Shown one piece after another: positions 11,219 to 61,966 of a stretch of DNA of 64,000 nt. Numbering within the stretch: the first letter of the stretch is position 1; each line of letters opens with the position of its first letter. The notes beneath the pieces were generated by a model that was not told the origin of the DNA, did no database searches, and saw nothing but the letters and a program-made list of their open reading frames with translations. Source of the DNA: Bacillus niameyensis (GTDB taxonomy: Bacteria; Bacillota; Bacilli; Bacillales; Bacillaceae_C); NCBI RefSeq assembly GCF_001375535.1, contig NZ_LN831197.1, positions 2,224,535-2,288,534 of the forward strand. The letters are read 5' to 3'. The translations under genes were made by a program, and so were the position numbers.

Positions 11219-11292
11219 AAACGAGTCACTTCCTAAAGCTTTTGATTGAATGGTTATAATTATCAAACTCACATAGAGAGTTGTCAAATAAG

Positions 11293-11502
11293 AAAAGCGG
11301 AAAGCGGCGTTTTGCGACGTACGAACTTTTTATTATTAGGATGAACGGCTAAAGACGCGCCGTCCTGGCGCAACGCCGTTCTGACCAACGTCCTGTTGGC
11401 CTGAGATAAAGGAAACACAGTGAGCCTGATAAGGCGAACTGATGTTGACTTATCGTAGGAAGAAGCTGAAAGTTCGCTAGTCGCTGCCGCTTGTAGCTAG
11501 AC
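11293..11502 (+). repeat. foldback element copy 1 (long form)
   Basis: About 210 bp from GAAAAGCGG to GAGCTAGAC-like TAGCTAGAC. Arms pair as AGCGGC/GCCGCT, GCGAC/GTCGC and CGAACTTT/AAAGTTCG; an apical helix pairs CAGT/ACTG around GCCT-GATA-AGGC. A 60-bp insert characteristic of the long form adds hairpins AACGGC/GCCGTT and CCAACGTCCTGTTGG. It lies between the minus-strand genes ydcC and alr. Confidence 0.85.
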
Positions 11503-11506
11503 AAAG

Positions 11507-11714
11507 AAAAGCGTAAGGTGGCGTTTAGCGACGTACGAACTTTTTATTATTAGGATGAACGGCTAAAGACGCGCCGTCCTGGCGCAACGCCGTTCTGACC
11601 AACGTCCTGTTGGCCCGAGATAAAGGAAACACAGTGAGCCTGATAAGGCGAACTGATGTTGACTTATCGTAGGAAGAAGCTGAAAGTTCGCTAGTCACTG
11701 TCGCCTGAAGCTAC
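11507..11714 (+). repeat. foldback element copy 2 (long form)
   Basis: Direct tandem repeat of copy 1, beginning four bases after it and nearly identical in the middle. The outer arms have decayed: the 3' arm reads GTCACTGTCGCC instead of GTCGCTGCCGC, breaking one pair. Confidence 0.85.
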
Positions 11715-11816
11715 GATAAGGTAAAGGCGTTTATTTCAATTGTAACCTATTGTAGGAGAATCATCCTTCAAAACCGGAAATTAGATTTTGGCAGAAGGAC
11801 ATAACATTTTTTCACA

Positions 11817-21836: not shown

Positions 21837-23171
21837 GTGATACCGTTAGAAGTAAGCTGCTCCATGATCTACATGAATATCTTACTCGTTATTCTTTTAA
21901 TCGCATTCACCGCATTTTTTGTTGCTTCTGAATTTGCAATCGTTAAAGTACGTGCTTCTCGAATCGACCAGCTAATAGCGGAAGGCCACACAAAAGCACT
22001 TACGGCAAAAAAAGTACTAAATAATTTGGATGGTTATTTATCGGCCACACAACTTGGAATTACAATTGCAGCATTGGGCCTTGGTTGGCTCGGCGATCCA
22101 ACCGTACAAGCCCTGTTAGCACCTTTATTCAAGAAACTACAAATCCATGGATCATTAGCAACTGTTATATCCTTTATCCTAGCATTCATGGTAATAACTT
22201 TTTTAAACGTAGTAGTTGGAGAACTGGCACCAAAAACAATTGCGATTCAGAAGGCAGAAGATATTACATTAGCTATCGCTGCACCATTAGTGTTTTTCTA
22301 TAAAATCATGTATCCATTTATTTGGATACTGAATAGTACAGCCCAAGTGATTGTTCGCATATTTGGATTTAAACCTGCCTCAGAAGGGGATCTCGCTCAT
22401 TCGGAGGAAGAATTAAGAATTATACTGTCAGAGAGCTATAAAAGCGGGGAAATTAATCAGTCAGAATATCGATATGTCAATAAAATTTTTGAATTTGATA
22501 ACAGAGTTGCAAAGGAAATTATGGTACCGAGAGTTGAAATCTTCACTATAGAAAAATCCGCCTCTATTAAGGAAATAATGGAGACGATTAAAGGAGAAAG
22601 ATTTACCCGTTATCCTATTATTGATGGCGACAAGGATAATATTATCGGTTTGGTGAATGTCAAAGAGTTTCTTACGGATTGTGTTAACGGAGATTGTTGC
22701 GAAGAAGAACCAATCATGCCGTATGTTAAACCGATCATTAGAGTGATCGAAACAATACCTATTCAAAGTTTATTAGTAAAAATGCAAAAGGAACGGACAC
22801 ATATGGCTGTTTTATTAGATGAATACGGTGGAACGGCAGGTATTATTACTGTAGAAGATATTCTAGAGGAAATCGTCGGTGAAATCCGTGATGAGTTTGA
22901 TATGGATGAAATACCTCATGTTCGTAAGGTTGCGGATCACCATTATCTACTCGACGCCAAAACTTTAATTGAAGAAGTGAACGATCTTCTAGGTACCCAT
23001 TTATCTGAAGAAGAAGTCGATACAATCGGCGGCTGGCTGCTCACACAAAAATATGATTTACAAGAAGGAGATACCGTCGAAGCCGAAGACTTTCAATTCT
23101 ATGTCCATACCATGGAAGGACTGCATATTACCGTTGTAGAAGTGAAAAGAAAAGCAGAAAGCGGCGTTTAG
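21837..23171 (+). CDS. CNNM/CorC-type transporter with CBS domains
   Basis: 444 residues. An N-terminal DUF21 membrane domain with about four TM helices (1-190) is followed by a CBS pair (about 205-335) and a C-terminal CorC_HlyC domain (about 350-435). The family is implicated in Mg or Co transport or efflux; annotation as haemolysin is historical. The start is uncertain: GTG 21837 or ATG 21864. AGGAGG lies 16 bases before the GTG with a small hairpin GTGAA-TCTTGC-TTCAC between them. The last codons (AESGV and stop) come from a foldback repeat. Confidence 0.9.
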
Positions 23172-23301: not shown

Positions 23302-23507
23302 GAAAAGCGTAAGCGCCTGTTCAGCGGCGTACGAACTTTTTAAGTTAAGGATGAACGGCTAAAGACGCGCCGTCCTGGCGCAACGCCGTTCTGACCAACG
23401 TCCTGTTGGCCAGGGATAAACGAAACACAGTGAGCCTGATAAGGCGAACTGATGTTGACTTATCGTAGGAAGAAGCTGAAAGTTTGCTAGCTGCTGGAGT
23501 TGGAAGC
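23302..23507 (+). repeat. foldback element copy 4 (long form)
   Basis: Follows copy 3 within four bases in the same orientation, and carries the 60-bp long-form insert seen in copies 1 and 2. The inner arm reads CGAACTTT/AAAGTTTG, which keeps pairing through a G-U. Its 3' outer arm is altered (GCTGCTGGAGTTGGAAGC). Confidence 0.85.
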
Positions 23508-23515
23508 GAATCCTA

Positions 23516-30647: not shown

Positions 30648-30950
30648 TTTTTTTAAAAAGAAAAAGCCCCCTGCTCCAAGCAAATATTACACTTGGAACA
30701 GAGGGCGAAAAGTCGCGGTGCCACCTCTATTGAAGACTTGGTCTCCATCTCATTAGATACGGGAAATACATTTCCGATATCCTATCCTATTAACGGTGGA
30801 AGCCGGATTTCCCTAATTATCTATTCAGGAAATCTCTCGTAAGTCCATTCCATTAGGCAGTGTCGTACCGGAATCTCACCATCACCGGCTCTCTTGAACG
30901 TCTTTCCCAACGTACTCCTCTTACTCATCGAATTATCTCTATCAAGTTTT
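30648..30950 (-). promoter_or_regulatory. tryptophan T-box riboswitch 2 (proximal)
   Basis: The T-box sequence AGGTGGCACCGCG (30712-30727) pairs with the uncharged tRNA acceptor. Stem I has GAGAGCCGG near 30885, and the specifier loop reads GAATGGAC with TGG at 30845-30847, so it senses tRNA-Trp. A terminator stem follows at 30656-30707. It is the second of two tandem units before trpD. Confidence 0.92.
30656..30707 (-). terminator. T-box 2 terminator
   Basis: CCCTCTGTTCCAAG pairs with CTTGGAGCAGGGGG, then CTTTTTCTTTTT. Uncharged tRNA-Trp binding would favour the antiterminator. Confidence 0.88.
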
Positions 30951-30956
30951 AAAAAA

Positions 30957-30993
30957 CGCAAAAAGGGTCCCTCATCCAAAGGACGAGGAACCC
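30957..30993 (-). terminator. T-box 1 terminator
   Basis: GGGTTCCTCGTCC pairs with GGATGAGGGACCC, followed by TTTTTGCG on the minus strand. Confidence 0.88.
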
Positions 30994-31220
30994 GTGGTAC
31001 CACCTTTATTAGCTAAAATTAGCTCACTTTAACAGCAACAAGCATTTCGCTTTTTTGCCTGTCTTCTGTAACGTCAAGACGCTCACGCCAAAGCCTACTG
31101 CCTCAATAAGGGTTCAGTTCGGGGCTCAGAAGTCCATTCACCATTTCTGCACACCGGTTTACACCACCCACCGGCTCTCTATAGTGCGACAAAATAGTTA
31201 CTCCTCTTCGTCACTGCCAA
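30957..31220 (-). promoter_or_regulatory. tryptophan T-box riboswitch 1 (distal)
   Basis: T-box sequence AAGGTGGTACCACGGG at 30991-31007. Stem I starts GAGAGCCGGTGGG near 31180, and the specifier loop GTGAATGGAC has TGG at 31134-31136. Tandem tRNA-Trp T-boxes are known upstream of trp genes in some Bacillus species and sharpen the response. Confidence 0.92.
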
Positions 31221-31302
31221 AATTATAATGAAAGTTTGAATTATTTAATATCTTATCTTTTCGATAAATGAAAGTCAAGACTTTTTCGTAATTACTTTTT
31301 CA

Positions 31303-36235: not shown

Positions 36236-36261
36236 GAAAAGAACACTCATTAGCATGAATG

Positions 36262-36358
36262 AATTAATGTTCCCTTCGCTGGTATGAGCCAGAGCAGGTT
36301 CGAAGGGTCAGCATCTCAAGGACGCACTCTCAACCAGCATCACTGGTCCCCCCACATT
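36262..36358 (-). promoter_or_regulatory. TPP riboswitch (THI element)
   Basis: On the minus strand the conserved core reads GGTTGAGAGTG, GATGCTGACCCTT, GAACCTGCTCTGG and ATACCAGCGAAGGGAA, as in TPP aptamers. With the terminator at 36196-36235 it would switch off the thiY operon when thiamin pyrophosphate is plentiful. Confidence 0.95.
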
Positions 36359-36424
36359 CCATATTTGATATTCTCACAACCTATTATAACAGATTAAGTC
36401 GAATAGGCTAGTATTAAGTCATTC

Positions 36425-39879: not shown

Positions 39880-39924
39880 GTGGATACTCCCATTATCTCT
39901 GTTATTTTTATATAGCCCCGCTCC

Positions 39925-39965
39925 CAGTGACTAACAAACTTTTAGCTTCTATCGGCGGCAGGAAA
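39925..39965 (-). repeat. foldback element remnant
   Basis: The minus strand reads GAAGCTAAAAGTTTGTTAGTCACTGGGAGC, close to the 3' arm of the foldback element (GAAGCTGAAAGTTTGCTAGTCGCTG). The 5' arm is gone. It lies between glycerate kinase and larB. Confidence 0.55.
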
Positions 39966-40020
39966 TTATGGTCCTATAATTCCTTCACTCGCTCATATTA
40001 TAATAATGTTTGCACTTCGC

Positions 40021-41166
40021 TTAATGAGCGTTTCTGCTCTTCGCAAAATATGTACGACAAACTTGTTCAGCTGCATGTTCTAGTAAAATCTCCGCATTTT
40101 CCATAGCTTCATCTAAGGATATTGGGCGATTGAGAATACTGTATACGCCGATTACTCCATACGGATATAAGTTCTCGATATTATTACCAACTGAACCCGC
40201 AAGGATAATCGTTGGGACTCCTTTCTTTTGAGCAACCTGAGCAACTCCCATCGGCGTTTTACCATAAGCTGTTTGGAAATCAACTTGTCCTTCGCCCGTA
40301 ATGACTAAATCTGCCCTCTCTATATGTTCCTCTAGTTTCGCATATTCCAAGACAACATCAACGCCACGTTCCGTTTCTGATGGGAAGAAGGCTTGAAAGG
40401 CTCCGCCAATTCCCCCAGCAGCACCCGCTCCCGCTAAATCATGAAGACGAATGACTGTATGCTGCTTAACTAGATCCGCATAGTGAGTAAGATTGCGATC
40501 TAACTCTTCAACCATTTGTTCCGTTGCTCCTTTTTGCGGACCATAAACATATGAAGCACCGTTGTCACCAACAAGTGGGTTTTCCACATCAGAAGCAATT
40601 AGAAAAATACTTTCTCTAATTCTCGGGTCAAAGTTTTCAAGATTGATAGATTCAATACGACCTAATTCCCCGCCGCCAAAGCCGATTTCCTCACCCGACT
40701 GATCTTTAAATTCTATTCCAAGCGCCTGAAGCATGCCAACACCACCATCATTTGTGGCTGATCCGCCGAGACCCAAAATAAACTTTCGATAACCGTCATC
40801 CAATGCTTGTTTTATTAATTGGCCTGTACCGTATGTAGTTGTTTTGAGTGGATTACGTTCATCGGGATGAATCAAATCAATCCCCGAAGCACTTGCCACT
40901 TCAATCACACATGTCACTCCATCGCCGAGCACTCCATATTGAGCTGCAACACTTTGCCCTAGTGGACCCGTGACCTGGACTTCAACTAAATGCCCATTGG
41001 TCGCAGCCACTAAATTTTCACTTGTCCCCTCTCCACCATCTGCAACAGGGACAAGAACCGTCTCTGCTTCAGGAAACGCCGTTTTAATTCCTCGTTCAAT
41101 GGCAAGTGCTGCTTGTTTTGCCGTGACACTTCCTTTAAACGAATCAGGCGCAATCACAATTTTCAC
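40021..41166 (-). CDS. glycerate kinase (GlxK/GarK family)
   Basis: 381 residues. It phosphorylates D-glycerate with ATP. Signature segments are KIVIAPDSFKGSVTAKQAA at the N-terminus, VPVADGGEGT, GLGGSATNDGG and GEGQVDFQTAYGKTP. GTG at 41166 is chosen because AGGAGAG lies seven bases upstream; the upstream ATG at 41196 adds an acidic leader absent from the family. Confidence 0.93.
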   Translation of the reverse strand: MKIVIAPDSFKGSVTAKQAALAIERGIKTAFPEAETVLVPVADGGEGTSENLVAATNGHLVEVQVTGPLGQSVAAQYGVLGDGVTCVIEVASASGIDLIHPDERNPLKTTTYGTGQLIKQALDDGYRKFILGLGGSATNDGGVGMLQALGIEFKDQSGEEIGFGGGELGRIESINLENFDPRIRESIFLIASDVENPLVGDNGASYVYGPQKGATEQMVEELDRNLTHYADLVKQHTVIRLHDLAGAGAAGGIGGAFQAFFPSETERGVDVVLEYAKLEEHIERADLVITGEGQVDFQTAYGKTPMGVAQVAQKKGVPTIILAGSVGNNIENLYPYGVIGVYSILNRPISLDEAMENAEILLEHAAEQVCRTYFAKSRNAH

Positions 41167-61922: not shown

Positions 61923-61966
61923 GCTAGCTCCAGACTCCAGCGGCTAGCAAATTTCTTCGCTTTTCT
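61923..61966 (-). repeat. foldback element remnant (internally deleted)
   Basis: Minus strand reads GAAAAGCGAAGAAATTTGCTAG then CCGCTGGAGTCTGGAGCTAG: both ends of the foldback element with the middle gone. Confidence 0.6.

Follow-up and report, generated by a model that had tools for sequence, protein, structure and literature searches.

A probably mobile superfamily of foldback elements with a conserved single-strand fold across the Bacillales

The stretch of Bacillus niameyensis DNA analysed here (64,000 nt, below called the window) carries five copies of a long foldback element, which are probably members of a superfamily of non-autonomous mobile elements that spans the order and would be moved in trans via a folded single strand. 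The presence of five copies, proposed in the first-pass annotation, was confirmed by profile and by sequence. Their positions could be kept for three copies, whereas c1 and c2 begin one base earlier than first assigned. The copies were also said to fold end to end, which holds for c3 and c5, the two that were folded singly. The features of the window are as follows:

11292..11502, plus strand: c1, long foldback copy that opens a head-to-tail pair (sequence, profile and model)
11333..11399, plus strand: Bacillaceae-1 module (RF01690) in c1, 71.1 bits
11506..11713, plus strand: c2, long foldback copy, separated from c1 by a 3-nt linker (sequence and profile; model match 11506-11716)
11547..11613, plus strand: Bacillaceae-1 module (RF01690) in c2, 71.1 bits
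23149..23298, plus strand: c3, short foldback copy (profile, sequence and model, 172.6 bits)
23302..23507, plus strand: c4, long foldback copy, separated from c3 by a 3-nt linker (sequence and profile; model match 23362-23512)
23343..23409, plus strand: Bacillaceae-1 module (RF01690) in c4, 74.6 bits
36044..36193, plus strand: c5, short single foldback copy (profile and model, 141.7 bits)
39910..40042, minus strand: weak, diverged match to the superfamily (covariance model, 35 bits, E 1.4e-7)
61924..61962, minus strand: 39-nt remnant of the 3' arm (profile, E 5e-4; C6:2286458-2286496 in the genome)

The evidence for a conserved fold comes from folding energies and, above all, from covariation. 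Each of c3 and c5 is predicted to form one long hairpin (-65.1 and -55.6 kcal/mol, respectively), and none of 200 dinucleotide shuffles of either copy folded as well. Compensatory double changes, from which the first reading of this DNA had deduced selection for a folded form, are indeed seen in the alignment of the five copies. Among 36 representatives (all below 90% identity, c3 excluded, kinship ignored in the counts), 94.9% of 1438 cells are paired and 23 of 40 pairs show double changes, with 127 double-change cells compared to 30.0 in shuffles; none of 500 shuffles attained any of five measures, and sliding the partners reduced pairing to 26-45%. A 35-row alignment (A2), which leaves out two degenerate representatives (L046:3826 and L032:4805) and includes c3, 93% identical to one row, is paired at 96.3%, with double changes in 22 of 40 pairs (128 cells). 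It served as the basis for the covariance model R1 and for the counts of strand asymmetry. A further set of 28 rows, most of which represent other genera and families, was again counted without regard to kinship; it is paired at 97.3% with double changes in 21 of 39 pairs (112 cells; 0/500 shuffles) after removal of one pair of columns (36/125) that is paired in 3 of the 28 rows; the slid-partner controls collapse here as well. It must be mentioned that an exact 22-base motif served to find the named loci, so part of the 3' arm is fixed in those rows, that the within-genus set underlies the model by which the cross-family rows were collected, and that related copies are not independent in the counts of covariation, spread, indels, TAA or tails. 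Covariation both within the genus and across families supports selection for a folded single strand.

Not all parts of the element vary in the same way. The ends are constant (GAAAAGCGnAAG ... TGnAGCTRGAC), while the outer helices vary freely yet stay paired. The inner domain is exchangeable among members; here it is of type A (GATAAAGGAAACAC ... GATGTTGACTTATCG), and in 102 copies these two core sequences, GATAAAGGAAACAC and GATGTTGACTTATCG, are almost invariant, with facing GA/GA internal loops that were read from the alignments. We considered whether the apical core might be hammerhead-like and dropped this idea on reading. With regard to the strand, G-U cells outnumber A-C cells in both alignments (18 versus 5 in the 35 rows, 30 versus 9 in the 28 rows). 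In the rows not selected by the scan motif (22 of the 35 within the genus, 23 of the 28 across families), no such asymmetry exists within the genus (6 versus 5), whereas it is found across families (24 versus 9, p 0.0135), and G-A exceeds U-C in these rows (15 versus 3 and 5 versus 0). The mismatch asymmetry hints at the top strand, without separating RNA from single-stranded DNA.

Searches with c3 by blastn returned matches in 13 of 21 genomes, all from the same genus. The first-pass annotation had suggested building a covariance model from the copies and searching genomes with it; R1 matched 193 of 299 genomes of the order in 78 of 116 genera (E<=0.001), with a best E<=1e-20 in 87 genomes by hand count. 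In a sample of 250 genomes of the class, 27 were matched, namely 15 inside the order (the present genome included) and 12 in one other family (E<=1e-6), which is the single family outside the order with a match in this sample. Two length classes occur among the 13 loci printed: one of approximately 149 nt carries the type A core, and the other, approximately 117 nt long, differs in its interior but not in its ends. Named carriers, found as 78 stretches with the 22-base motif, include Siminovitchia, Lederbergia, Neobacillus, Virgibacillus and Ornithinibacillus; in Virgibacillus proomii, far from the present genus, two long copies stand head to tail and share the linker ACTC (L117, 621-1024). 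Viral contigs gave no match to the motif, phages none to c3 or L255 and plasmids none to c3, L255 or L260; with L268 as query, a 36-nt end was found in two Priestia megaterium plasmids. A confinement to chromosomes is weakly supported by these searches, as the collection may contain few plasmids from the carrier genera. Apart from the module treated below, the foldback core had no Rfam match in the window at gathering threshold, the search of c1-c2 at E<=10 returned only RF01690 and one sub-threshold match on the minus strand, and at E<=0.5 none of five loci was matched over the elements. We found the superfamily neither in Rfam nor in the open-access papers to which the literature search was confined. 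If we are right, roughly two thirds of the genomes sampled in the order contain a repeat superfamily that had no database entry.

Several lines of evidence speak for mobility. The genome of B. niameyensis (4.68 Mb, six contigs) contains at least 129 HSPs to c3 by blastn, a lower bound with 40 of 135 candidates scored and with c1, c2 and c5 absent from the matches listed. Many equal-scoring copies lie on different contigs in three other genomes (G001, G003, G006), and the copies printed from them share their interiors and differ in their outer flanks. In a comparison of two relatives, G007 and G009, over two regions of about 200 kb at 85% and 83% identity, 10 of 35 indels match the type A profile (E<=0.01), and 11 of 35 when the 117-nt profile is added. 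The gap between atpG and atpD (the beta subunit confirmed by family match, atpG by reading) holds a member in at least 4 of 13 genomes; it begins directly after the stop codon in B. niameyensis and G010 and one base later in G011, the left end in the fourth carrier, G008, not being printed. Furthermore, the present genome carries large tandem arrays: one repeats a 363-bp unit, made up of one short and one long copy, 21.4 times at 99% matches, another a 206-bp unit 10.5 times, also at 99% matches (L032 5580-7782, C6:523579-525781 in the genome). Since the 206-bp array is flanked by SpoIIIAC/AD-family (spoIIIAD-like) and Spore_III_AE-family genes, with a Spore_III_AA gene upstream, it lies inside the spoIIIA operon; in 12 same-genus genomes searched, this site is a short gap. 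Where tandem structured blocks lie inside core operons (ATP synthase, spoIIIA), their influence on expression could be tested directly. The 363-bp array, about 8 kb long (L031 7083-15053, C6:2805083-2813053), lies between ParA/NUBPL-family and Amidase_3 genes. Hence, of the earlier suggestion of a REP- or MITE-type mobile element, the mobile part is supported, given the dispersal, the presence and absence between relatives, the arrays and the lack of any coding capacity seen, whereas the assignment to classical MITEs or REPs does not.

The insertion sites were analysed in 156 clusters, of which 127 could be classed (19 at an edge, 8 inside a frame and 2 duplicates were left out). When the upstream gene points at the copy, 40 of 64 copies begin within 15 nt of its stop codon, otherwise only 4 of 63. 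Co-directional gaps hold 31 copies in sense and 49 in antisense orientation, convergent gaps 33 and divergent gaps 14; among 928 background gaps, 639 are co-directional, 135 convergent and 154 divergent. Among the 103 of 127 copies that could be anchored, those of the GAAAAGCG type follow a TAA in 13 of 35 cases with the gene toward and in 13 of 32 with the gene away, compared to a background of 2.2%, and the preference is weak for GAAC-type copies (5 of 14 toward, 2 of 19 away, against the same background). Copies prefer a preceding TAA and therefore tend to follow stop codons; recognition of the stop codon as such was rejected, because TAA is equally common before GAAAAGCG-type copies whether the gene points toward or away from them. 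Copies stand against the local majority gene direction in 95 of 154 cases (p 0.005; own, named and G007/G009 loci), a bias which is not relied on as it reverses in G007/G009 (7 of 19).

These positions bear on the possibility that the element is a functional structured RNA, a 3'-UTR element or ncRNA with a role for the host that was spread by duplication. The covariation with its nearly invariant inner core, the excess of G-U over A-C across families and the start of so many copies close behind stop codons all agree with such an RNA. However, selection for the sense strand as in a 3'-UTR was rejected, since antisense copies outnumber sense copies in co-directional gaps; moreover, the sites differ between relatives, and both the copy numbers and the arrays are in keeping with a mobile element, which makes a host function an unlikely explanation.

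The search for a mobilising enzyme covered three families. Y1_Tnp is present in 10 of 11 genomes searched and absent from G010, PF07282 in 10 of 15 carriers, and RVT_1 in 13 of 15 carriers. Within 1.5 kb of 30 loci each, no copy was found beside Y1 genes, a copy or fragment beside PF07282 genes at two loci and one fragment beside RVT_1 genes. RAYT, TnpB-type and reverse transcriptase proteins were therefore rejected as resident mobilisers, because none is universal in the carriers searched and only 3 of 90 loci lie near a copy or fragment. The reading as a TnpB-associated RNA was likewise dropped, with a copy or fragment beside the nuclease gene at only 2 of 30 PF07282 loci and 5 of 15 carriers free of PF07282, and so was a derivative of a group II intron or retron, as the present genome and G011 gave no RVT_1 match.

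Movement through an RNA intermediate, in which a reverse transcriptase would turn the folded transcript back into DNA, has a low probability in our estimation. The conserved fold, the near-invariant core and the occurrence of RVT_1 in most carriers would suit it, but the genome with the large arrays is itself one of the two that lack RVT_1, and the 30 RVT_1 loci have that one fragment nearby. 

The proposed movement in trans via a folded single strand, which we consider probable, may take the following course. An enzyme acting in trans would recognise the folded strand, and for this reason the shape rather than the sequence would be kept. It would insert the strand at A/T-rich sites, where it is presumably tolerated mostly between stop codons and terminators. 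Arrays may result from insertion beside a resident copy or from unequal recombination. As a substrate, single-stranded DNA is slightly likelier than RNA, because the present genome has no RVT_1 match at all.

The right border deserves separate consideration. A 3' tail follows 27 of 202 elements with paired ends (0.6 expected), in 23 of these 27 at 38-42 nt past the foldback; it ends near TTTATAnTTTC, which we take for the true right end of the element. Under a looser definition of the tail, 41 non-tandem ends were collected, some of which look false and many of which are related; a run of five A occurs within 14 nt in 18 of them compared to 4.1% of random positions, and the following 50-mer folds at -12 kcal/mol or below in 22 of them compared to 11% of controls, the controls for tail and A-run being random positions with coding sequence included. 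In many tails of GAAC-type copies, e.g. in L271-L281 and L303-L308, we read TTATCCACA, which we take to be the DnaA-box consensus.

Another candidate is a classical MITE, which would have arisen from an insertion sequence by deletion and would have inverted ends, a short target duplication and an incidental fold. By eye, the 3' tail and the 5' end form weak inverted repeats (TAAGAAAAG versus the reverse complement TAAAGAAAG), and TA stands at both borders of several copies in G003 and G001. However, target-site duplication at the foldback ends is not significant (3 of 55 perfect 5-mers, 1.35 expected, p 0.14; the tail borders were judged by eye), no transposase-like frame was found by reading in 30 spans between both ends (1.81 Mb), and the interior is conserved across families in shape and partly in sequence, so that an origin of this kind appears improbable. 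We regard it as very unlikely that the double changes arose without selection for the fold, through repair of the DNA with one arm as template for the other (quasi-palindrome correction), for which the few one-sided intermediates within the genus speak (18 G-U versus 128 double-change cells) but against which stand the conservation across families of unpaired internal-loop columns, not correctable in this way, and the excess of G-A over U-C (15 versus 3) in rows not selected by the scan.

The two sizes of the element, noticed earlier together with an insert of about 60 bp, could be explained: the insert of the long copies is the 67-nt Rfam RNA Bacillaceae-1 (RF01690), which exceeds the gathering threshold of 35 bits in all three of them, whereas the covariance-model search of the window gave no RF01690 match in the short copies. 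RF01690 occurs in 147 of 299 genomes of the order and in 70 of 116 genera, often as dispersed copies of equal score, with at most about 16 candidates per genome scored. In neighbourhoods of 20 such loci, for 14 of which the match was printed, some lie inside foldbacks with AGCTGGAC-type ends and others sit in different palindromes. Compared with the published account of RF01690 as far as consulted (PMC2864571), the likeness is its presence inside the long copies at 71-75 bits; the difference is that it forms a 67-nt module of some copies only, the surrounding foldback of about 150 nt being absent from Rfam. If true, the Bacillaceae-1 RNA is partly a module of mobile repeats. Typed by length, 27 arrays comprise 12 that start short-long, 1 long-short, 2 long-long, 6 short-short and 6 untyped. 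In the mixed head-to-tail starts (own, named and G007 loci), the copy of Bacillaceae-1 length was thus almost always the downstream one (12 versus 1).

Judged by how published passages describe bcr1, EFAR and REP elements, the present family appears to act like them. We take the size class and foldback shape of EFAR and of other bacterial MITEs to be similar to those of this family. The likeness to EFAR of Enterococcus and to other bacterial MITEs was judged from their mention (PMC3733652); in contrast to them, our model had no matches outside the order except in one family in the class sample. The accounts consulted in part present bcr1 as dispersed MITE-like repeats of approximately 150 bp with mobile features and a TTTAT motif tied to insertion, confined to the B. 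cereus group (PMC6542083, PMC3446304). The shared features are the dispersed occurrence in Bacillaceae, the signs of mobility, the length of about 150 bp and an A/T-rich motif, which in the present family corresponds to the TAA at the left and the TTTATA of the tail; however, this family spans 78 genera of the order. REP elements, thought to be moved in trans as a folded strand by RAYT transposases according to the passage available (PMC3733652), are also palindromic, dispersed and non-coding. In contrast, our foldback is much longer, its ends read GAAAAGCG and GCTAGAC, and by reading the foot of the hairpin bears neither a GTAG nor a CGTC tag; a RAYT-like Y1 gene is missing from several carriers, and none of the 30 Y1 loci has a copy within 1.5 kb. 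Bhal-1 of B. halodurans resembles the family as a dispersed stem-loop repeat in a related genus, and differs in its length of 74 bp instead of about 150 (PMC2267715, seen in part); from the size alone, our guess would be that Bhal-1 is Bacillaceae-1.

Going beyond the mobile superfamily as such, we tentatively raise the idea, which we consider rather doubtful at present, of an ancient mobile class built as a folded single-strand scaffold with constant ends and exchangeable inner RNA-like domains, Bacillaceae-1 among them, which would be moved by a shape-reading chromosomal enzyme without target duplication and would be largely chromosomal. For the superfamily as such, the many copies whose shape persists as their sequence changes would provide a natural experiment on the recognition of folded DNA or RNA by an enzyme.

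Some minor observations concern the surroundings of individual copies. An ORF of the CNNM/CorC family (21837-23171) enters c3, and its last codons and stop lie inside the element (23149-23171). A spoIIIAE match in L150 (G003) shows one in-frame TAG. At L048 (2153-2296, minus strand) a copy stands just past an apparent 16S rRNA 3' end, in an assembly made doubtful by runs of N. Finally, the window contains two T-box leaders in succession (30698-31223, minus strand) and, soon after c5, a TPP riboswitch (36254-36363, minus strand).
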